The position numbers and the translations under genes were made by a program. This document shows, piece after piece, positions 7,005-20,442 of a stretch of 64,000 nucleotides of DNA (position 1 is its first letter; every line of letters starts with the position of its first letter). The stretch covers positions 1 through 64,000 of the forward strand of contig JADGNZ010000028.1 of NCBI GenBank assembly GCA_017883205.1, in the 5' to 3' direction. Source of the DNA: Thermoanaerobaculia bacterium (GTDB lineage Bacteria; Acidobacteriota; Thermoanaerobaculia; Gp7-AA8). The notes under the pieces were generated by a model that saw only the letters and a program-made list of their open reading frames with translations, did not search any database and was not told where the DNA came from.

Positions 7005-7400
7005 ATCGATGCCTTCGCTCAATGGCATCGATGACTTTGGACCATGCCGTCGACGGCTGGGATGAAGAAGCCGATGCCTCTGCCTGACCCGGTTCACGCG
7101 TGCGCTACACGCCATTCATGGCCATGCTCGATGCCATCGATGGCATCACCCATGTCATCGATGGCAATGCTCAATACCGTCGAAGGCAACGACCCATGCC
7201 ATCGACGTCATCCCTCATGCCATCGATGGCAACCACCCATGCCATCGATGTCATCCCTCATGCCATCGATGACAACCCCCCATGCCATCGATGGCATCAC
7301 TCATGGCATCGATGGCAACCCCCCATGCCATCGATGCCATCGCTCATGCCATCGATGGCATCGGCCATGGCCTGCGATGGCTTCCCCGGATGCCGCTGAT
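7005..7400. repeat. Phased palindrome array, ATGCCATCGATGGCAT core, 21/22-bp period
   Basis: ATCGAT-centred palindromes start at 7005, 7027 and 7049 (GTCGAC). After a degenerate gap the run continues at 7136, 7157, 7179, 7201, 7222, 7244, 7265, 7287, 7308, 7330, 7351, 7373 and 7395 (the last two degenerate). Steps alternate 21 and 22, a mean of 21.5 bp. Consensus is ATGCCATCGATGGCAT plus a short variable spacer. Open frames across it arise because the repeat lacks stop codons and are not credible genes. Two other arrays in the window keep the same spacing with different cores. Confidence 0.85.
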
Positions 7401-7568
7401 GGTCTGCTCGATTGCGGTTCACGCAGCAACCCAACCCCGTAGAAACCAGCAACCAAGCAGAGGTCTGTGACCTTTTCCGGCGTCTTGCGTCTAAGTAATC
7501 AACGAGGCATCGTTTTGGGAAAGGCAGACACCCGGTTCCGCCCCCGTAGGAACGCCACGCAGTCGCGG

Positions 7569-8216
7569 ATGGCCGGAGTGTCTTCATGCGGCACGGAACG
7601 GGAGCGCCGCCGCTTCTGGGGCCGGCCGTTCCGCCGCACGCTCCGGGCCATCGACCGTTCGCTGCGGCTGATCGAGGCTTCATGGCGCGCCGTCGACGCC
7701 GCGGAGGGATTCGCGGCGGAGCGTCCCCTCCGGGCCGCCCGCAATTTTGAGCTCGCTTCGGATTGGCTGCGCGAGATCACGACGCACTTGTCTTACGCGG
7801 CACGCGGTCTGAGCGTGATGGCCGGCAGGATTGCCTCAACGCCATCGCTTCCCTCGAGTGCTCCCGAGCAACTGGCCGCTGCCACATCAAGCTGGATCGA
7901 TGCGGTCAGAAAGATGGAGTCCCTATCCAGCCGGTGCGATGACAGCTACATCGCGCTCCTGGAGGCGATGGCGGGAGGCGCTCTGCTCGATCTCGACGAA
8001 CTGCTGGGGGACCAGCGCGTCCCCGCTCCGCAGCGCATCGCCATGCACCGCCCTCCGGAGCGTCGTTCGCCGCGCAACAGCAGTTGCACCCGATTCCTGC
8101 ATGAGCGGCGTCAACGGTCTGCCGGCTCGACGGTTGCCGAGGGTGCAAGACGGATCTGCCGAGGCCGTGCTCCTCCGTTCCTTGCAACGTGCACCCTCCT
8201 AACCACTGCAAGTTGA
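7569..8216 (+). CDS. Uncharacterised protein
   Basis: The frame is open from a GTG at 7467; the ATG at 7569 is a more plausible start because the upstream part is compositionally odd, giving 215 aa. The central part (about 90 residues from RRFWGRPFRRTLRAIDRSL) is an Arg/Ala/Leu-rich helical stretch that looks like genuine protein. The C-terminal ~50 residues are Arg/Ser/Cys-rich and may be less conserved. No family recognised. It sits 21 bp upstream of another unknown gene and may form a two-gene unit with it. Confidence 0.45.
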   Translation: MAGVSSCGTERERRRFWGRPFRRTLRAIDRSLRLIEASWRAVDAAEGFAAERPLRAARNFELASDWLREITTHLSYAARGLSVMAGRIASTPSLPSSAPEQLAAATSSWIDAVRKMESLSSRCDDSYIALLEAMAGGALLDLDELLGDQRVPAPQRIAMHRPPERRSPRNSSCTRFLHERRQRSAGSTVAEGARRICRGRAPPFLATCTLLTTAS

Positions 8217-10179: not shown

Positions 10180-10254
10180 ATGCGGAAATACGTCAAGCCA
10201 CGCGCTGTCTCGACGAAGTCCGGCGTCGCCTGCTCGACTCAGAGCAAGAAGTAG
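10180..10254 (+). CDS. Candidate RiPP precursor peptide (24 aa)
   Basis: ATG at 10180 follows a strong Shine-Dalgarno (AAAGGAGGG, 10168-10176); stop TAG at 10252-10254. The peptide begins MRKYVKPRAV and ends GVACSTQSKK, with a single Cys at 18. Tyr4-x-x-Pro7 resembles the YxxP leader motif that lasso-peptide and other RRE (PqqD-like) domains recognise, and the short Ser/Thr/Gly/Cys stretch after it could be the modified core. It lies 100 bp before a gene whose N-terminus is a PqqD-like domain, which supports a leader/RRE pairing. An in-frame ATG at 10129 would give 41 aa but lacks a comparable ribosome site. The function is inference; no homologue was checked. Confidence 0.65.
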   Translation: MRKYVKPRAVSTKSGVACSTQSKK

Positions 10255-10274
10255 CGGACGAGTCACGCATGACA

Positions 10275-10308
10275 ACCGGAGGTGCGGCGACCGCGCCGCG
10301 CTTCCGGT
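10275..10308 (+). promoter_or_regulatory. Hairpin between precursor and modification genes
   Basis: Imperfect GC-rich stem (ACCGGA...CGGCG against CGCCG...TTCCGGT) just after the peptide stop. Such hairpins between a RiPP precursor and its enzymes often attenuate downstream transcription so the peptide is made in excess; here this is inferred from position. Confidence 0.4.
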
Positions 10309-10354
10309 ACTCCTGCCCACACTACCAACTCGAACCTCGCGAGGATGTCTGATC

Positions 10355-11716
10355 ATGAATGCCTTCGTCGATACCTTCGTGCAAGAACAGGAGCTCTCGG
10401 TGCGCCTCATCGGTGACGAGGCCGTCATCGTGAATCGTGCCACCAACTCACTGCACCGCCTGAATGATGTCGGAGCGGCTGTCTTCGAGACCTTTGCGCA
10501 GCGTGGTATGGCGGCGGACGCCGTGCGCATGTTGACGTCGAGATTCGATCTCTCCGACGTGCCGCAGGATGAGGTCGAGAGCGACGTTGAGGCGTTCATT
10601 GCCGATCTCCTCGAGCGCCGTCTCATCCGCAACACGGAGTTTGCGCCGCTCCCGCGAGCGCCGATCCACCTCCCGGATTGGCGCGAGGAGCTGGAGCGGA
10701 TCGGAGTCGACCTCATCGCGCCGGTCTGGTCGAAGATCGAAATATCCACTCGATGCCATCTCGACTGCGTTCACTGCTACATCCCCTACGACGACCGCCG
10801 CCGTCCGATTCCTTCCGAAAAGCGGCATCTCGATAACGATGAGATCTGCCGAGTCATCGATGAACTGGCCGCGGCTGGGGCGATGCTTCTGACGGTGACC
10901 GGAGGAGAGATCTTCATCCGCCAGGGCATATTCGACGTGCTCGAGCATGCGAACCGCCGCGGCTTCATCCTGGAGCTGTTTACGACGGGAATGCCCCTGA
11001 ACGCCGAAAAAGTGGCGCGGCTGGCGGCGCTGAACGTAGGGAACGTTCAGATCAGTCTCTACAGCCACGAAGCCGGGACTCATGATGCCGTGACGCAGTC
11101 GCCGGGATCGTGGGAACGGTCCGTCTCCGCGGCGCGTCAGCTAATCGCCAGCGGCGTGAACGTCGAATTCGCCTGCACGCTGATGCAGTCGAATGTCGCA
11201 GACACGAAAGGGATGAAAGAGCTCGGAGAAAAGATCCGCGCCACCGTGAGCTTCGGTTATCCGATTACGTCTCGCACCGACGGCAACCGCGATACGCACG
11301 CGCTGCGCACCTCCGGTCCTGAACTGGAGCGAGCCATCCGCGATCTCCCCGAGTTTTTTGCCAAACCGGCACCGAAGCCTGCCGATCAGCCAATCTGTCC
11401 CGCGGCAGTGAACATGTGCGCAATCTCGGCGAGCGGCGATGTTCTGCCGTGCAGTCAGTTTCATCTGCCGCTCGGCAATGTCCGGGAGCAATCGCTGAAG
11501 GAGATCTGGGAATCATCGCCGGTGGCGCGCCGCGTGCGCGCGATCCGAACCGGCGATCTGAAACCCTCAGTGGCTGGCGCATTGGATTCTTATGTCGGAC
11601 TCTGCCCGGGGCTGAACCTGCTGGAAGAGGGCGACGCGCTCATTCCCGCGCGAGTGACCGCAGAGACTACGCTGGCAGTCGATCGGGTATTGGGGAGCAG
11701 CACGCACGCGCGATGA
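10355..11716 (+). CDS. PqqD-like (RRE) domain fused to radical SAM/SPASM peptide maturase
   Basis: 453 aa from the ATG at 10355 (MNAFVDTF); the frame extends upstream but that part is not protein-like. Residues ~14-92 form a PqqD-like RiPP recognition element (NRATNSLHRLNDVGAAVFE... DVEAFIADLLERRLI). The radical SAM core follows: Cys134-x3-Cys138-x2-Cys141 for the 4Fe-4S cluster, TVTGGE at ~180-185 for SAM binding, and a C-terminal SPASM-like region with C(x6)C, PCSQF and LCPG cysteines. It probably modifies the peptide at 10180 by radical chemistry. The final SPASM cysteine set is shorter than usual, so auxiliary cluster content is uncertain. Its stop overlaps the next ATG (ATGA). Confidence 0.85.
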   Translation: MNAFVDTFVQEQELSVRLIGDEAVIVNRATNSLHRLNDVGAAVFETFAQRGMAADAVRMLTSRFDLSDVPQDEVESDVEAFIADLLERRLIRNTEFAPLPRAPIHLPDWREELERIGVDLIAPVWSKIEISTRCHLDCVHCYIPYDDRRRPIPSEKRHLDNDEICRVIDELAAAGAMLLTVTGGEIFIRQGIFDVLEHANRRGFILELFTTGMPLNAEKVARLAALNVGNVQISLYSHEAGTHDAVTQSPGSWERSVSAARQLIASGVNVEFACTLMQSNVADTKGMKELGEKIRATVSFGYPITSRTDGNRDTHALRTSGPELERAIRDLPEFFAKPAPKPADQPICPAAVNMCAISASGDVLPCSQFHLPLGNVREQSLKEIWESSPVARRVRAIRTGDLKPSVAGALDSYVGLCPGLNLLEEGDALIPARVTAETTLAVDRVLGSSTHAR

Positions 11717-12750
11717 CACTGCGCGCTTGCCTCCTCGGACAGGCACACACGCGCGAGTCGATCGGCTGGTCACTTCCGGTCAACGACTCGCGCGAGTGGC
11801 TGCGCATCCTCGGCGGGGGAGATGTGCTGAGCTATCAACGCGTCGTCGCAACGCCGCAAGCCATCAGCGACTACGACCTGGTCATCGTGGAGCTCACGCC
11901 TGCGACCCACGCTCTACCCCGATTTCTGAAACGCCGGGTGCCGCACGTGCCCTGCGTTGCGTTGATCGAAGGACGCGTGGAGTACGTCGTCCGGTCGAGC
12001 GGGGAAATGGAAGGGCTCTTCCAGTTCGCGCAATGCCTCGACGACGCAGATCTTGTGGGCGTTCTCGTAGAACGGACGTTGCCCTATTACCGCCTTTACG
12101 CGCGCAATCAGGAACGCGTGCAGTGGCTCGGGATCCCTTATCCGCTTGACTGGACGGATTCGATTGCGAGCACCCCCGGGCCAGGACCGATCATCATCGA
12201 GCTCGCGTCCGGCCTCGACTCGCGGAATGGAATTGCCAACGTTCTCGTACTTCGAGCGCTGCAGCGTCGTTTCCCGGGAGTCATCGGGCGGATTTTCCCC
12301 TGCTCCGAGCGCGAGCGGTCGATGATCGAGGCGCTCGGCGTCCGCGCCCAGATGCTGCAGCCGCGCCGCTGGCGCGACTACTACCGGCTCCTGCGTCAGG
12401 ACGTCTTCGCCATTCTCTGCCTTGATGACCGGCGAACCTGGGGCCGGTATGCGCTCGATGCCGCCTCCGCGCGCGTGCCGTTCGTTGGCAGCCATCTCAG
12501 TCACGGAGGAGAACATGTCGGATTGCTGACGTGCGATCCGTTCGACGTCACAACCGCGCTCGATTTCCTTACCGACCTCGTGGAAGAGCGGCTCAGCGGC
12601 CGCGACTACCTCTATCGTGATGTTGCCGAAAGACAATATGCGGCCTTGCAAAGCTATGGCGGCGAAGCCGCGCGCGAGCGAATGCGCGTTGCGCTCGCTG
12701 CAGCAGGCCTCGCTGATGCCGCGGCAAAGCTCCAACCCGTACACGCATGA
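11713..12750 (+). CDS. Glycosyltransferase-like protein in the RiPP-like operon
   Basis: 345 aa; the start ATG at 11713 overlaps the previous stop by 4 bp, so translation is coupled. The layout is that of a GT-B-type two-domain protein: an N-terminal Rossmann-like half (~1-150) and a second half beginning GPGPIIIELASGLDSRNGI, with RIFPCSERER, then DVFAILCLDDRRTWGRYALDAASARVPFVGS, similar to the nucleotide-sugar side of GT4 enzymes. Catalytic residues cannot be assigned confidently. It may glycosylate the modified peptide or a carrier; alternatively it is an uncharacterised scaffold. The weak family match limits confidence. Confidence 0.6.
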   Translation: MTLRACLLGQAHTRESIGWSLPVNDSREWLRILGGGDVLSYQRVVATPQAISDYDLVIVELTPATHALPRFLKRRVPHVPCVALIEGRVEYVVRSSGEMEGLFQFAQCLDDADLVGVLVERTLPYYRLYARNQERVQWLGIPYPLDWTDSIASTPGPGPIIIELASGLDSRNGIANVLVLRALQRRFPGVIGRIFPCSERERSMIEALGVRAQMLQPRRWRDYYRLLRQDVFAILCLDDRRTWGRYALDAASARVPFVGSHLSHGGEHVGLLTCDPFDVTTALDFLTDLVEERLSGRDYLYRDVAERQYAALQSYGGEAARERMRVALAAAGLADAAAKLQPVHA

Positions 12751-13607
12751 CCCCTTTGCGATATGTGAACCTCTATTGCAACACTGCGTGTGATTCGCGG
12801 TGTACGACATGCACGTTCTGGAAGATGCACCCGCGGCACTGGCTCGATGCCGAGGTGCTTGCGAGCGTGGCGAGCTCGCGCTTCGTGAGCGAAGAGACGT
12901 GGTTTGCTCTGCAGGGTGGTGAGTTCACGCTGCACTCCGGCGCCGATGCAATTCTCGATCTCTTCGCTGACCGAAACTACATTCTCTTCACCAACATGCT
13001 GAACCCGCGGCGCGTGAAGGAGCTGGTCGACCGCCACGACGTGCAATATGTGACGGTATCGCTCGACGGCGGGCGCGAAGGGTATGCACGCATCCGCGGC
13101 GTGGATGCCTTCGACCGCGTCACCGCAGGCATCCGGCAGCTTTCGGAGAGGGCAAGCGTCTCGGTCGGAATCACGATCACTCCCTGGTCGACGTATGAAG
13201 ACGTCCGCGAAGCAATGGATTGGTGCAATGCGGCGAACGTACCGTTTGGACTCAACGTCTATACGGAGAGCAGAATCTACGGGTCGGAGCGGCGAGCGGA
13301 GCCGATCGCACCGTTGCAGCGGATCGTCGACGAGACGGGTGATGCGTACTGCGCGGCGCACATTCTCTGGAGCCGGGGAGAGCTCAACCTGCCATGCCGG
13401 AGCATTCGCCGCGTGGCCAGCATTTCGCCGGATGGTGATCTCCACCTCTGCCACAATCTCGACATCGTCCTCGGCAACATTCACGAGGCACGCTTCGACG
13501 ATATCTGGAGCAGTGAGCGCACCAACCAGCTCCATCAGCAATACGAGTCATGCAGCGCATGCTGGACGAGCTGCTATCGCGAGCTCGATCTGGAGGAGGC
13601 TCGGTGA
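12747..13607 (+). CDS. Second radical SAM/SPASM enzyme
   Basis: 286 aa; ATG at 12747 overlaps the preceding stop (ATGA). Radical SAM cluster motif Cys15-x3-Cys19-x2-Cys22 near the N-terminus, LQGGEFTL as the SAM-binding GGE, and a complete C-terminal SPASM ending in CSACWTSC (CxxCxxxC), with further cysteines in LPCRS and LCHNLD. Unlike the first enzyme it has no PqqD domain, so it may depend on that protein's RRE for substrate docking. Two radical SAM enzymes in one short operon imply two different modifications, or one modification plus a second activity. Confidence 0.85.
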   Translation: MTPLRYVNLYCNTACDSRCTTCTFWKMHPRHWLDAEVLASVASSRFVSEETWFALQGGEFTLHSGADAILDLFADRNYILFTNMLNPRRVKELVDRHDVQYVTVSLDGGREGYARIRGVDAFDRVTAGIRQLSERASVSVGITITPWSTYEDVREAMDWCNAANVPFGLNVYTESRIYGSERRAEPIAPLQRIVDETGDAYCAAHILWSRGELNLPCRSIRRVASISPDGDLHLCHNLDIVLGNIHEARFDDIWSSERTNQLHQQYESCSACWTSCYRELDLEEAR

Positions 13608-14644
13608 GAGCCTGCGTCATCCCGGAAGGGAGTGAGCACGACCCGAACGCATTTGCCGGCAGGATTCGTCTTTTTGATCCGCTCGATGCCGTCGCTGGTT
13701 CTTATCCACTCCAGTGGAGGGTGGGATCGCCAGCCACAGACGATCCCCTCGACGACGACGTCATCATCCTTCAGCGCACGCCCTTTGCGTCGGTGGCTGC
13801 GATCGATCACGCCGCGGAACGGCTATCGTCGGCTCGACGGCGCGGCGCCCGTGTGCTGTGGGAAATCGATGACGCCATCTTTTGTGAGACGTTGCCGGAA
13901 TTGATCGCGTCCAGCGCGGTCGACGAGATCGACGAGGATGCCGTGGCGATCGTGCAGGCACATCGGACGCTGCTCCCCATCGTCAGCGCGTTCGTCTGTT
14001 CCACCGCGCCTCTCGCCGATGAGTTGCGCCGCCTTGCCCCCCGCACGCCCATTCACGTGATTCCCAACGCCCTGAACTTCGCACACCCGCGATGGATTAC
14101 GACAAGGAATCGCCGCGAGTGCTTCACCATCGGCTGGTCCGGCGGTAGCCGCGTCGGCCGCGATCTGGAATTGATCGTCCCCGTCATCAGCGCCGCGATC
14201 GAGGAGTTTGCTCCACGAATGAAGTTCCTTCTCGCGGGAGCAACGAAATATGCGCGGTTGTTCGACGGGCTCCCCCCCGATCGTGTGGAATTCGTTGACT
14301 GGGTTCCATACGATGACTACCCGGCTCTCCTTGCGCGCTACGACATCGCCCTCGTGCCGATGGAGGATCACATCTACAATCGTTGCAAGAGCGCGCTGAA
14401 GGTGATCGATTACGCTGCCGTTGGAGCTCCTTCGATCTGCAGCCCGACCCAGCCATTTATCGATTCGTTCGATGAGGTCGCGGCATTTGCACGTGACACA
14501 GACGAATGGATGGATGCAATTGAGGCGCTTCTTATCATGAGCACAAGAGAGCGTTGTGCGCTTCAGGCACACGCAAGAATGAGGCACGGCGTGGCCGGCA
14601 TAGTCGACCCCTGGTGGCGCGCCCTGAGCGGTCATGACGATTGA
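13604..14644 (+). CDS. GT4-like glycosyltransferase
   Basis: 346 aa from a GTG at 13604, chosen because it overlaps the previous stop (GTGA) like the other junctions and follows GGAGGAGG; an ATG 18 codons upstream lies inside the previous gene. GT-B family 4 features: HVIPNALNF at the domain junction, FTIGWSGGSRVGRDLELI opening the C-terminal Rossmann domain, FVDWVPYDDYPALLARYDIALVPM, and a CKSALKVIDYAAVGAP helix where the E-x7-E motif normally sits. It probably transfers a sugar from a nucleotide donor. In this operon the acceptor could be the processed peptide. Confidence 0.75.
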   Translation: MRACVIPEGSEHDPNAFAGRIRLFDPLDAVAGSYPLQWRVGSPATDDPLDDDVIILQRTPFASVAAIDHAAERLSSARRRGARVLWEIDDAIFCETLPELIASSAVDEIDEDAVAIVQAHRTLLPIVSAFVCSTAPLADELRRLAPRTPIHVIPNALNFAHPRWITTRNRRECFTIGWSGGSRVGRDLELIVPVISAAIEEFAPRMKFLLAGATKYARLFDGLPPDRVEFVDWVPYDDYPALLARYDIALVPMEDHIYNRCKSALKVIDYAAVGAPSICSPTQPFIDSFDEVAAFARDTDEWMDAIEALLIMSTRERCALQAHARMRHGVAGIVDPWWRALSGHDD

Positions 14645-15533
14645 AACGCCACTGGAAGATTTACGCGCGTTGAGCGCCTACCTGGAGGGACCCCGCCTTC
14701 TGGTCAAACGCGACGACAAGCTGCCATTCGGAGGCAGCAAGTTCCGAAAGGCGCTCGCTCTCGTGGATCACGCGCTCCGGCGCGGCGCCAATGTCGTCAT
14801 CACCGAGGGGTCGATCGAGTCCCAGCATGCCAGGACGCTGGCCATCGCATCGCAAGAGCGGGGACTATCATGCGTTCTCGTCCTCTCTCCCGAGGCGTCG
14901 GGAAGTGAGCCGAATCTGCTCGATGACGCCCTCGGTGCAGAGATCATCATCGCTTCAAGCGAAGGGGAACGACCCGCGCTGGTGGCCGCCGCCGCTGAGA
15001 AGCACGCTGGCCGAGGGGAAGTCGTCGAGGTGGTCCCGTTCAGCGGAACGAACGGCATCACCACGGTCGCCTACATGAATGCGTTCCTGGAACTGTTGTC
15101 CCAGGCAGAAACCGCCGGCGTCACCATCGACGCGATCTATCTCTCGTCAGCGACAGGCGGTATTCATGCTGGACTCGAGCTCGGCAAGCGCGTGGCTGGC
15201 GCGAACGTCGAGATCGTCGGTGTTACGCCCGGCCTGGCGGTGGGCGAGCTTCGCCAGCGCGTGGCCAGTCTCGTTCATGCCGGCGCAGAGCTGGCCGGTA
15301 AAGAGATCGAGGTGTCACCGGCAGAGATTACGATCTTCGACGCGTACGTCGGCGATGGCTATCTGAAGCCGACCGTGGAGTCGCAGTCGGCCCAGCGGAT
15401 CGTCCGTGACCTCGAAGGCCTCGAGCTCGACTCCGTGTATACGGCCAAAGTCATGGCGGCGCTGATCGACCAGATACGTTGCGGCGCGATCGATTCCTCG
15501 AAGACAGTTGTTTACTGGCACTCTTCGGGGTAG
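14634..15533 (+). CDS. PLP-dependent D-cysteine desulfhydrase / ACC deaminase-like enzyme
   Basis: 299 aa; overlaps the preceding gene by 11 bp. It belongs to the fold-type II PLP family: LVKRDDKLPFGGSKFRK holds the probable PLP lysine (~Lys36), ITEGSIESQHARTLA matches the substrate/cofactor loop, and YLSSATGGIHAGL is the phosphate-binding Gly-rich loop. It ends at VVYWHSSG, slightly short of the usual HTGG-x-PALF tail. Known family members deaminate ACC or desulfhydrate D-cysteine. Its place at the end of a RiPP-like operon whose peptide carries one cysteine is suggestive, but a link is speculation. Confidence 0.75.
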   Translation: MTIETPLEDLRALSAYLEGPRLLVKRDDKLPFGGSKFRKALALVDHALRRGANVVITEGSIESQHARTLAIASQERGLSCVLVLSPEASGSEPNLLDDALGAEIIIASSEGERPALVAAAAEKHAGRGEVVEVVPFSGTNGITTVAYMNAFLELLSQAETAGVTIDAIYLSSATGGIHAGLELGKRVAGANVEIVGVTPGLAVGELRQRVASLVHAGAELAGKEIEVSPAEITIFDAYVGDGYLKPTVESQSAQRIVRDLEGLELDSVYTAKVMAALIDQIRCGAIDSSKTVVYWHSSG

Positions 15534-17003: not shown

Positions 17004-17088
17004 TGATCGCCTTCTGTCAACCTTCGCCCTCTTCCATCGTTTGAATGCAGCGCAACTCCTATACTTCCCATTCACGAAAAGAGGGTCC

Positions 17089-20000
17089 ATGAAAAAGCTT
17101 GTTGGTGCGTTCGTACTCCTCGTTGCTACCTCGGCGTTCGCTGCCGGGCACACGCTCTACCAGAATCCTTCGCTGAGCCGGACGCGGATTGCGTTTGCGT
17201 ATGCGGGGGACATCTGGACGGTCTCTCGCGACGGCGGCGTTGCGGAGCGGCTCACGACGTATGCGGGGGTGGAGAGCGATCCGCGGTTCTCGCCGGATGG
17301 GACGCGCGTCGCCTTCACGGGCGAGTACGACGGCAACACGGATGTCTATGTCGTGCCGGCGGAAGGTGGGGAGCCGAAGCGGCTGACGTTTCATCCCGGC
17401 GCCGATCAGGTCGTGGGGTGGACGAGTGACGGGACGAAGGTGCTCTTTCGTTCGTCGCGCCAGAGCGCACGCAGCTACGGTCAGCTCTTCACCGTCGGAC
17501 TCGATGGCGGGCTGCCGGAGTTGGTGCCGCTGCCGCATGCGGATGAGGGCTCGTTCTCGCCCGACAACTCACGCATCGCCTATCAGCCGATCTCGCAGTG
17601 GCAGCCGGACTGGAAGCGTATGCACGGCGGACAGACCGGGCAGATCTGGATCGCGCGCATGTCCGACTCGTCGATCGAGCGCGTTCCGCATCCCGGCTCG
17701 AACGATCACGCGCCGGCGTGGATGGGCGACACCGTCTACTTCATCTCCGACCGCGGCAGCCGCACGGGGACGACGTCGATCTTCGCGTACGACACGCGCA
17801 GCAAGGCGGTGTCCGAGGTGGTGAAGAATGAGGGGCTGGACATCAAGTCGATGTCTGCGGGGCCCGACGCGCTCGTGTACGAGAAATTCGGAACGATCTT
17901 TCTCTTCGATCCGAAGACGCGCGTTTCGAAGGAAGTGCCCATCCAGGTGCGAGGCGACTTCCTCGGGCTGCGCGCGCGCTACGCGCCGGCAGCCGACTCG
18001 ATCCGCAGCGGACGCATCTCGCCGAGCGGAGCGCGCGCGGTGTTCGAGGCGCGCGGCGAGATCATCACGGTGCCCGTCGAGAAGGGAGACGCGCGCAACC
18101 TGACGAACACCGTCGGGGTCATGGAGCGCGATCCTGCCTGGTCGCCGGACGGCAAGTCGATCGCGTATTTCTCCGAGGAGTCGGGGGAGTACGCGCTGGT
18201 GATCCGTGACCAGAAAGGGGATCGTCCCGGCAAGAAACTCGACCTCGGCGAGCCTGCCAGCTTCTACTACAGGCCGGTCTGGTCGCCCGACAACACGAAG
18301 GTCGCGTACACCGACCGCCGGCTGAACCTCTGGTATGTCGATGTGGCGACGGGAGCGCGCGTGAAGGTCGACACCAATCCGGTCGGCTTCAACGGCGACG
18401 TGCTCGATCCGCGGTGGTCGCCCGATAGCCGATGGATCGCCTATGCCCGCTACCTTCCGAACCTCGTCCGCGCGGTCTTCGTCTTTTCCATCGAGTCGCA
18501 GAAATCGTCGCAGGTCACAGACGGCCTCAGCGATGTCATCTATCCGGTATTCGACCGCGGCGGCAAGTATCTCTACTTCGCGGCCAGCACTGACATCGGG
18601 CGCGGTATCAGTTGGGCCGATCTCTCCGGAATCGACAGCGTGGCCACGCGCAACGTCTACGCGGCCGTTCTTCGCAACGATCTCCCATCGCCGCTCGCGC
18701 CGGAAAGCGACGAGGAGAAGGCGGACAGCGACAAGAGCAAGGATGCGAAGAAAGACGACAAAGAGGTGAAGAAGGACGACAAGGAGCCCGAGAAGAAGGA
18801 CGGGAAAGAGGCGGAGAAGAAAGACGACAAAGAGAAGAAGGACTCGGCTGACAAACCGAAGGTCGCGCCAGTCCGCATCGACCTCGACGGCATCGGCCAG
18901 CGAATCATCGCTTTGCCGATCCCGAACGGAAACATCCAGGGACTCGCAGCCGGCAAAGAAGGAATCCTCTTCGTCTCGATCGCTCCTCCCTCATTCTTCG
19001 GAAGCGAAGACGAAGGAATGAACGTCCGGCGGTTCGATCTCGAGAAGCGGAAAGTGAAGGATTTTCTCTCCGGCGTGAATGCCTTCGATGTGTCGGCGAA
19101 CGGCGAGAAGGTTCTCTATCAGAAAAAGAAAGATTGGGCGATCGCGTCATCGGCCGACGAGCCGAAGGCAGGCGAGGGATCGCTCAAGCTCGGAGGCATC
19201 CAGATCCGCGTCGATCCACGCGCGGAATGGCGGCAGATGTTCCGCGACATCTGGCTTGGCGAGCGCGATCATTTCTACGACGAGAATCATCACGGGCTGA
19301 ATCTCGAAGCGGCGAAGAAGCTGTACGAGCCGTACCTCGACGCGGTCGCGAACCGCGCCGATCTGAACTACCTCTTCCGCGAGATGCTCAACCAGTTGAC
19401 GATCGGCCACATGTTCATCCGCGGCGGCGACATGCTCGAAACGAAATCCGTTCCGGGCGGCCTCCTCGGCTGCGACTACACCGTCGACAACGGGCGTTAC
19501 CGCTTCTCACGCGTCTACAGCGGAGAGAACTGGAATCCGGAGATGCAGGCGCCTCTCACGCAGCCAGGTGTGAACGTGAAGGCGGGCGAGTACCTCATCT
19601 CGGTCGCGGGCCGCGATCTCCGCGTCGGCGACGATGTCTACGCGCGCTTCGAGAACACGGCCGGCAAACAGGTGGCCATCCGCGTAGGCGCGAAGCCCGA
19701 CGGATCGGACGCGAGGGAGGTCGTCGTCGTTCCGGTGGCGAGCGAGTCGGCACTGCGCGGGCGCGCCTGGATCGAGGACAACCGCCGCAAGGTCGATCAG
19801 CTCAGCGGCGGACGCCTGGCCTACATCTACATTCCGAACACCGGCGGCGCCGGCTACAAGAGTTTCAATCGCGACTTCTTCGTGCAGACAGGGAAGGAAG
19901 GGGCGGTCATCGACGAGCGCTTCAATCAGGGAGGACTGCTCGCCGACTACGTGGTGAACATGCTCACGCGCCCGCAGCTCAGCGCCATCCGATTCCGCTA

Positions 20001-20442
20001 CGCCGAGAAGGACGTTGCCGTTCCGGGCGGCGCGATCTACGGCCCGAAGGCGATGCTCATCAACAGCATGTCGGGCAGCGGCGGCGATGCCATGCCGTGG
20101 TACTTCAAGAAGATGAAGGTCGGGCCGCTGGTCGGCACGCGCACATGGGGCGGCCTCGTCTCGTCGCAAACCGGACCCCGGCTGATGGACGGAGGCACGT
20201 ACACCGCTCCCGACGCGGCGGTCTATGGGCTGAGCGGCAATTGGGAAGTCGAGAACGCCGGCGTTTCCCCCGACATCGAGGTGGAGCTCGACCCGGCCGA
20301 ATGGCGGAAAGGACACGACACGCAGCTGGAGATGGCGGTGAAGACGCTCATGGAGCAAGTGACGCAGCATCACCGCACCGAGCCGGTCCGTCCGGCGTTC
20401 CCGGTTTACGAGAGGTGCTGCGGACTGGACACGAAGCACTGA
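17089..20442 (+). CDS. Tricorn-like protease (TolB propeller, PDZ, S41 peptidase)
   Basis: 1117 aa from ATG 17089, where a signal peptide begins (MKKLVGAFVLLVATSAFAAG). Order: a TolB/WD40-like beta-propeller with repeated DPRFSPDGTRVAF/DPAWSPDGKSIAY blades (~20-520), a Lys/Glu/Asp-rich linker encoded by about 18700-18860, then a Tricorn core with helical C1 domain (EWRQMFRDIWLGERDHFYDENHHG), a PDZ-like stretch (NVKAGEYLISVAGRDL), and an S41-type catalytic domain with NSMSGSGGDAMPWYF holding the nucleophile Ser. Tricorn-type peptidases degrade peptides in an oligomer; the signal peptide places this one in the periplasm. The charged linker (KKDDKE-type repeats) is unusual. Confidence 0.9.
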   Translation: MKKLVGAFVLLVATSAFAAGHTLYQNPSLSRTRIAFAYAGDIWTVSRDGGVAERLTTYAGVESDPRFSPDGTRVAFTGEYDGNTDVYVVPAEGGEPKRLTFHPGADQVVGWTSDGTKVLFRSSRQSARSYGQLFTVGLDGGLPELVPLPHADEGSFSPDNSRIAYQPISQWQPDWKRMHGGQTGQIWIARMSDSSIERVPHPGSNDHAPAWMGDTVYFISDRGSRTGTTSIFAYDTRSKAVSEVVKNEGLDIKSMSAGPDALVYEKFGTIFLFDPKTRVSKEVPIQVRGDFLGLRARYAPAADSIRSGRISPSGARAVFEARGEIITVPVEKGDARNLTNTVGVMERDPAWSPDGKSIAYFSEESGEYALVIRDQKGDRPGKKLDLGEPASFYYRPVWSPDNTKVAYTDRRLNLWYVDVATGARVKVDTNPVGFNGDVLDPRWSPDSRWIAYARYLPNLVRAVFVFSIESQKSSQVTDGLSDVIYPVFDRGGKYLYFAASTDIGRGISWADLSGIDSVATRNVYAAVLRNDLPSPLAPESDEEKADSDKSKDAKKDDKEVKKDDKEPEKKDGKEAEKKDDKEKKDSADKPKVAPVRIDLDGIGQRIIALPIPNGNIQGLAAGKEGILFVSIAPPSFFGSEDEGMNVRRFDLEKRKVKDFLSGVNAFDVSANGEKVLYQKKKDWAIASSADEPKAGEGSLKLGGIQIRVDPRAEWRQMFRDIWLGERDHFYDENHHGLNLEAAKKLYEPYLDAVANRADLNYLFREMLNQLTIGHMFIRGGDMLETKSVPGGLLGCDYTVDNGRYRFSRVYSGENWNPEMQAPLTQPGVNVKAGEYLISVAGRDLRVGDDVYARFENTAGKQVAIRVGAKPDGSDAREVVVVPVASESALRGRAWIEDNRRKVDQLSGGRLAYIYIPNTGGAGYKSFNRDFFVQTGKEGAVIDERFNQGGLLADYVVNMLTRPQLSAIRFRYAEKDVAVPGGAIYGPKAMLINSMSGSGGDAMPWYFKKMKVGPLVGTRTWGGLVSSQTGPRLMDGGTYTAPDAAVYGLSGNWEVENAGVSPDIEVELDPAEWRKGHDTQLEMAVKTLMEQVTQHHRTEPVRPAFPVYERCCGLDTKH

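Follow-up and report, generated by a model that had tools for sequence, protein, structure and literature searches.

A rare Acidobacteriota operon combines a short conserved peptide with an RRE-fused radical SAM enzyme and resembles a peptide-modification pathway

Results

Organization of the operon

We analysed a stretch of 64,000 nucleotides (the window), positions 1 to 64,000 of contig JADGNZ010000028.1, from a Thermoanaerobaculia bacterium of the phylum Acidobacteriota (assembly GCA_017883205.1). An earlier reading of the letters alone (the sequence-only reading) had placed a six-gene operon at positions 10180-15533 of the forward strand, and these coordinates proved correct. The operon encodes a short peptide, two radical S-adenosylmethionine (SAM) proteins (rSAM1 and rSAM2), two glycosyltransferase-like proteins (GT1 and GT2), and a pyridoxal phosphate (PLP) enzyme. 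The peptide and four of the enzymes have been kept as a set in two classes of Acidobacteriota, the second holder being a genome whose locus is called L022 below. The set has the features of a pathway for a ribosomally synthesised and post-translationally modified peptide (RiPP) that employs a RiPP recognition element (RRE) and a radical SAM maturase. The features are as follows.

10180..10254, +, putative precursor peptide MRKYVKPRAVSTKSGVACSTQSKK (strong Shine-Dalgarno sequence; ortholog in L022; synonymous changes within an identical tail)
10275..10308, +, stem-loop of 15 bp between the peptide gene and rSAM1 (RNA fold z-score)
10355..11716, +, rSAM1, PqqD/RRE, radical SAM and SPASM-like domains (Pfam; AlphaFold2 model; ortholog in L022)
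11713..12750, +, GT1, putative GT-B glycosyltransferase (ortholog in L022; modelled C-terminal half)
12747..13607, +, rSAM2, short radical SAM/SPASM protein of 286 amino acids (Pfam PF04055 and PF13186)
13604..14644, +, GT2, group-1 (GT4-like) glycosyltransferase with a GTG start (Pfam PF13524 and PF13692)
14634..15533, +, PLP enzyme of the D-cysteine desulfhydrase / 1-aminocyclopropane-1-carboxylate deaminase branch (Pfam PALP)

The five enzyme genes are chained by overlaps of 4 bp (rSAM1/GT1, GT1/rSAM2 and rSAM2/GT2) and 11 bp (GT2/PLP enzyme), just as the sequence-only reading had described them. Its picture of a compact operon holds for these genes but not for the peptide, which stands 100 bp before rSAM1, the sole step without an overlap. 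The GC content at third codon positions was 0.70-0.75 in the operon and 0.69-0.83 in its neighbours; this gives no clear separation and so no sign of a recent transfer of the operon.

The precursor peptide and its counterpart in a distant genome

The peptide open reading frame (ORF), 24 codons plus a stop, lies just downstream of AAAGGAGGG, the strong ribosome-binding site already noticed from the sequence. The peptide consists of a leader with the motif KYxKP, a form of YxxP, and a tail, CSTQSKK. To find relatives, 84,980 species genomes were scanned with exact peptide words from the window rSAM1. The scan, which may have passed over more divergent members, returned one true relative: L022, in Acidobacteria bacterium 13_1_20CM_3_53_8, a distant metagenome-assembled genome of another class of Acidobacteriota.

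The gene order in L022 is rSAM1-GT1-GT2-PLP enzyme, that of the window minus rSAM2, with the peptide in front. The rSAM1 proteins are 49% identical over residues 6-447; in full alignments, identity was 58-60% for GT1, 44-46% for GT2, and 49% for the PLP enzyme. The L022 peptide, MARVKKYEKPKVVETKKSAKCSTQSKK, is encoded by a 27-codon ORF (L022:7829-7912) with its own GGAGG, 73 bp before the rSAM1 ortholog. The sequence-only reading had proposed that other Acidobacteriota should show the same gene order, with a short YxxP ORF and a conserved core before the PqqD-radical SAM gene; L022 has both, and the opposite case, enzymes kept beside no conserved short ORF, did not occur.

Common to both peptides are KYxKP, TK, and the entire tail, including its one conserved Cys. 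Their local alignment scored 77, whereas 20,000 shuffles gave at most 57 and 12,322 reading frames from other loci at most 43. The alignment spans 24 codons, of which 7 are unchanged, 7 differ synonymously and 10 non-synonymously, with identities of 17, 15 and 9 of 24 at codon positions 1, 2 and 3, respectively. In the tail, three of the seven codons differ, all synonymously, and the amino acids are identical (7/7). Because the changes within the identical tail are synonymous and identity is lowest at the third position, the codon comparison indicates that the short ORF is a translated peptide under purifying selection, co-inherited with the enzymes. The leader motif of the W/Y/LxxP type is kept in both peptides, and YxxP is a documented RRE recognition motif (PMC12710340), as the sequence-only reading had stated. 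In both genomes, an encoded precursor is conserved beside modifying enzymes, as is expected of a RiPP pathway.

A degenerate DNA pattern for YxxP...CSTQSK had three matches in 396 genomes, one of them in the window genome, where it is single-copy; the two others were judged by eye to be chance matches. A second small ORF, MTTGGAATAPRFRYSCPHYQLEPREDV (10270-10353), was rejected as a further precursor, as L022 lacks an equivalent and the stem-loop lies within the ORF. The resemblance of the L022 peptide to the NCBIfam 'SSH motif' RiPP peptide was weak (E 0.26) and was taken as chance.

rSAM1 is an RRE-fused radical SAM protein

In both genomes, rSAM1 matched PF05402 (PqqD), PF04055 (Radical_SAM) and PF13186 (SPASM) above cut-off, with 43.5 bits against a cut-off of 23.4 for PF05402 in the window protein. 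The PqqD/RRE domain spans approximately residues 7-93, and the radical SAM CxxxCxxC motif lies at residues 134/138/141. In the SPASM region there are only four cysteines (C348, C355, C366 and C417), each of them also present in L022. The full set of seven (Cx9-15Gx4C, CxxCx5CxxxC, and a last Cys) is not present; as the CxxCx5CxxxC set is missing, the auxiliary clusters are probably reduced, judging from the sequence.

An AlphaFold2 model of rSAM1 (12 sequences; mean predicted local distance difference test score, pLDDT, of 73.9) places strands at residues 7-9, 14-19, 22-27 and 32-36, followed by helices at 38-48, 53-63 and 71-87. As modelled, residues 7-93 form a complete RRE winged helix with an alpha3/beta3 groove. 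The claim that the first enzyme begins with a PqqD-like RRE therefore stood up in both the Pfam match and the fold, and a PqqD domain lacking a peptide groove, which by the sequence-only reading would have refuted its proposed peptide pathway, is not what the model shows. The best structural matches in the PDB were SkfB (Z 25.3) and SuiB (Z 23.9), the SuiB superposition covering 372 residues (model residues 6-440) and including the RRE region. SkfB was also the best PDB sequence match, and further structural neighbours included the sugar-acting enzymes BlsE, DesII and BtrN.

GT1, GT2 and rSAM2

GT1, which shows the highest conservation among the enzymes, belongs to an orphan family: no match was found to it in Pfam, NCBIfam or PDB sequences. 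Its model was poor overall (mean pLDDT 47.9), with an unreliable N-terminal half (pLDDT <50). Residues 150-305, however, matched the C-terminal domains of GT4 enzymes (BshA, SdgB and TarM; Z of about 13, root-mean-square deviation of 2.8-3.8 over 136-150 residues), so that, in the model, the C-terminal half appears to be a nucleotide-sugar-binding domain of the GT-B/GT4 type. G-protein-coupled receptor entries in the Foldseek list of GT1 were dismissed as fusion-protein artefacts; several of these structures carry a fused glycogen-synthase domain.

GT2 matched PF13524 and PF13692 above cut-off, and its ortholog (L022:10576-11670) starts at the same residue as the GTG-initiated window protein. 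The description of two glycosyltransferase-like genes, drawn from sequence alone, thus holds for GT2 through Pfam, but for GT1 only through the modelled half of the protein. Annotations of GT2-like proteins elsewhere name either an ordinary glycosyltransferase or a protein that has a methyltransferase domain.

The second radical SAM/SPASM gene also stood in part. Its domains are present (PF04055 and PF13186), but it lies outside the conserved core, being missing from the L022 cluster, in whose genome only a weak partial match was seen. Among 396 genomes of the phylum there was one remote match to rSAM2 (30%), and no other genome gave more than 30% over its length. By sequence comparison, rSAM2 is a lineage-specific accessory or tailoring enzyme. 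In L022, a methyltransferase gene and a PhyH-type dioxygenase gene (L022:5973-7639) lie just upstream of the peptide and are perhaps lineage-specific tailoring enzymes of that cluster.

The PLP enzyme

The best solved relatives of the PLP enzyme, a Pfam PALP protein, are the D-cysteine desulfhydrases 4d8t and 7ysk, aligned end to end, and its earlier description as D-cysteine desulfhydrase-like is confirmed at the level of the family branch. Like the D-cysteine desulfhydrase / D-cysteate sulfo-lyase (CuyA) / XcbE family, it is a fold-type II PLP enzyme that aligns over its full length and keeps the PLP-lysine motif GGxKxRK and YT. Unlike that family, it has ESQH/ESRH in place of the substrate loop QSNH and falls below all equivalog cut-offs (191 of 450 bits for CuyA; 144.5 of 469 for the best D-cysteine desulfhydrase model). 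Since the loop is altered and the cut-offs are widely missed, the substrate has probably changed.

The intergenic stem-loop

The stem-loop, which was absent from the feature list of the sequence-only reading, is matched in the corresponding gap of L022 by another strong one of unrelated sequence (7922-7950). RNA fold z-scores of the two intergenic gaps were -3.88 and -3.86, and none of 200 shuffles was as stable in either case. No T-run follows the stem-loops on the coding strand of the window or L022, so a canonical terminator was rejected. The structure is a candidate attenuator or RNA-processing element; the natural reading would be that it stops part of the transcription or stabilises RNA, holding precursor levels above those of the enzymes.

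Distribution and comparison with known systems

Rarity was assessed with GT1 or its two-sequence profile, in genome samples that overlap. GT1 was found in 1 of 396 sampled Acidobacteriota and 1 of 149 genomes of the window's class (the window genome itself both times), and in 1 of 162 genomes of L022's class, sampled twice (L022 itself). It was not found in 198 genomes from a different phylum or in 72,556 plasmids, and IMG/VR contained only remote radical SAM proteins. Such a distribution is that of a secondary-metabolite cluster with sporadic occurrence. The literature searched contained no paper describing this gene set, and the combination could be matched to no described peptide class.

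None of the NCBIfam RiPP models was satisfied by the operon, and rSAM1 approached no maturase cut-off: it scored 84.8 bits against 265 for the MftC equivalog, 88.9 against 381 for PqqE, 83.5 against 400 for the GeoRSP radical SAM protein, 55 of 300 for skfB, 48 of 850 for AlbA, and 72 of 625 for StsB. By the models tested, the operon is not a mycofactocin, pyrroloquinoline quinone (PQQ), GeoRSP or known sactipeptide system.

In the RRE-fused maturases SkfB, SuiB and CteB, the RRE-radical SAM-SPASM architecture is the same, and these gave the best fold matches of rSAM1, but they share only 13-22% identity with it, and rSAM1 has fewer SPASM cysteines. To our knowledge, none of these systems has two glycosyltransferases and a PLP lyase-like enzyme. 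The PQQ system (PqqA/D/E) also combines a short precursor, a PqqD domain and a PqqE-superfamily radical SAM enzyme; however, the tail here has no Glu-Tyr pair (no Glu and no Tyr), and the cluster lacks PqqB, PqqC and PqqF. Mycofactocin is a radical-SAM peptide glycosylated by a glycosyltransferase of its own cluster, with a precursor, MftA, of 31 amino acids (PMC7491314). The mycofactocin system (MftA/B/C/F) thus shares the short precursor, the RRE, the radical SAM/SPASM maturase and, if the decoration proposed here takes place, a product-decorating glycosyltransferase (PMC7491314). It differs in that its RRE is separate rather than fused, its tail residues are Val-Tyr rather than CSTQSKK, and its MftF is of glycosyltransferase family 2 (PF00535) rather than of the GT-B/GT4 type: in our operon, GT2 matched PF13524/PF13692 and GT1 no Pfam family. 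MftD and MftE are missing from the cluster.

A PqqD-radical SAM fusion on Thiodictyon plasmid pTs417 is 29% identical to rSAM1 over 88% of the query, but its neighbours are a second radical SAM gene, an amidohydrolase, YcaO and TfuA, with no glycosyltransferases and no PLP enzyme. That tight operon (L061:6917-12994) is possibly a thioamide-type RiPP cluster, and an IS66 element lies in the region before it.

Other peptides with YxxP leaders and other features of the window

A second conserved RiPP-like family, different from the first, was observed in six genomes of the bacterial family to which the window organism belongs, namely the window genome and at least five others. Its peptides, of about 56 amino acids (KKxYEKPxxxRFPLRPxEAVLGFCK...C...C...GS), directly adjoin a related radical SAM/SPASM gene. 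Two representatives matched no NCBIfam model. The peptides are located as follows.

L067:4071-4256, window genome, contig 46
L068:5715-5894, L069:4480-4788, L070:3847-4374, L052:7652-7834 and L017:1097-1294, other genomes

A conserved YxxP peptide lies beside a related radical SAM gene in all these genomes, which shows that this lineage pairs KxYEKP-type leaders with radical SAM enzymes. Two more candidates with YxxP/WxxP leaders lie beside radical SAM genes at L016:978-1184 and L055:5070-5273 (beginning KRAYEKPAISWQEMLEVRKTLAVACAKVAG and RRPWQRPRILFREPLETLATVCAP, respectively).

Past a DoxX-like gene, at a distance of approximately 1.5 kb from the downstream end of the operon, the window encodes a Tricorn-type protease (17086-20442; WD40-like propeller, PDZ and S41 peptidase), for which we found no evidence of a link to peptide processing. 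ORFs of dense short repeats at 7044-7442 (MPSM / AIDG / DGITH-like units in overlapping frames) are probably repetitive sequence rather than a gene.

Discussion

We consider it probable, at about 0.7, that the operon is a rare RRE-radical SAM RiPP pathway. It works like such a pathway in its testable features; to speak of a new RiPP class would require the product. The sequence-only reading had proposed a ribosomal peptide with radical modification and glycosylation, and the L022 peptide, the gene order and the RRE support it, although the chemistry and the peptide as sugar acceptor are matters of inference.

Very probably, the CSTQSKK tail of a tiny ribosomal peptide is remodelled by a radical enzyme. 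We infer the following chemistry and order of steps. With the help of the stem-loop that follows its gene, the precursor of 24-27 amino acids would be produced at a higher level than the enzymes. Fold and motif suggest that the PqqD/RRE domain at the N-terminus of rSAM1 would bind the KYxKP leader. The radical SAM core of rSAM1 may then install a radical modification in the tail, as its architecture leads one to expect; Cys, Thr, Gln or Lys are candidate sites. A sugar would be placed on a Ser, Thr or Cys in the tail and lengthened, by GT1 first and by GT2 second. The co-conservation of the glycosyltransferases and the precedent of mycofactocin suggest that the peptide, rather than another acceptor, is probably glycosylated. 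The PLP enzyme, the weakest link of the mechanism, might come in at a late stage, once the product is modified or released, or might supply a small building block, and rSAM2 would add a lineage-specific tailoring step.

Several points weigh against this pathway. The cluster encodes no peptidase or transporter, which suggests that processing would involve enzymes encoded elsewhere or that the product stays in the cell. With two loci known, the limits of the core cannot be mapped by variation. As most auxiliary-cluster cysteines are missing from the SPASM region, the chemistry cannot be read from known maturases, and the glycosyltransferases could have an acceptor other than the peptide.

The strongest competing explanation, which we nevertheless regard as rather unlikely, is that the peptide is a disposable scaffold for an intracellular redox or thiol-cofactor-like molecule, a few of its tail residues being excised after radical modification and glycosylated, as in PQQ and mycofactocin. 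The precursor is close in length to MftA (31 amino acids) and to PqqA, which is of similar size, and no transporter or C39 peptidase was seen in the window or L022 cluster. The order of events would also fit, as the mycofactocin glycosyltransferase acts after the radical SAM step (PMC7491314). However, a whole seven-residue tail is conserved rather than two residues, no partner oxidoreductase family is encoded nearby, and such extreme rarity is unlike a cofactor pathway.

It is less probable still that the glycosyltransferases and rSAM2 act on a cell-surface or soluble glycan, the peptide and rSAM1 being a separate system that shares the operon. This would suit the annotations of GT2-like proteins elsewhere, the methyltransferase and PhyH dioxygenase upstream in L022, and the sugar-acting neighbours of rSAM1 (BlsE, DesII and BtrN). 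Yet GT1 directly follows rSAM1 in both genomes. The window genes overlap, their order has survived approximately 50% protein divergence, and hardly any other genomes carry them, all of which speaks for a single pathway.

Equally doubtful is the more specific proposal of a new RiPP class, in which a Cys-poor RRE-radical SAM enzyme acts on the C-terminal CSTQSKK, two GT-B enzymes glycosylate it, and the PLP enzyme, turned to a new use, acts directly on the N-terminal Cys of the released peptide; we know of no such direct reaction in the D-cysteine-desulfhydrase-type family. A reading of the short ORF as a regulatory leader peptide or as a product of chance, instead of a substrate, is very improbable: it is short and followed by an attenuator-like stem-loop, but its tail is identical despite synonymous codon changes and lacks the single-amino-acid run typical of attenuator peptides, its score is far above those of shuffles, and its leader carries an RRE motif next to a gene that carries an RRE.

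For the RRE-radical SAM pathway that we favour, the two diverged loci define a minimal core of four enzymes that is directly testable. No curated RiPP model covers the operon, and a precursor of 24-27 codons may escape gene callers. If made as proposed, its product would be a radical-SAM peptide natural product associated with a GT-B glycosylation pair and a desulfhydrase-like enzyme, and it would come from a phylum that has seen little chemical exploration.

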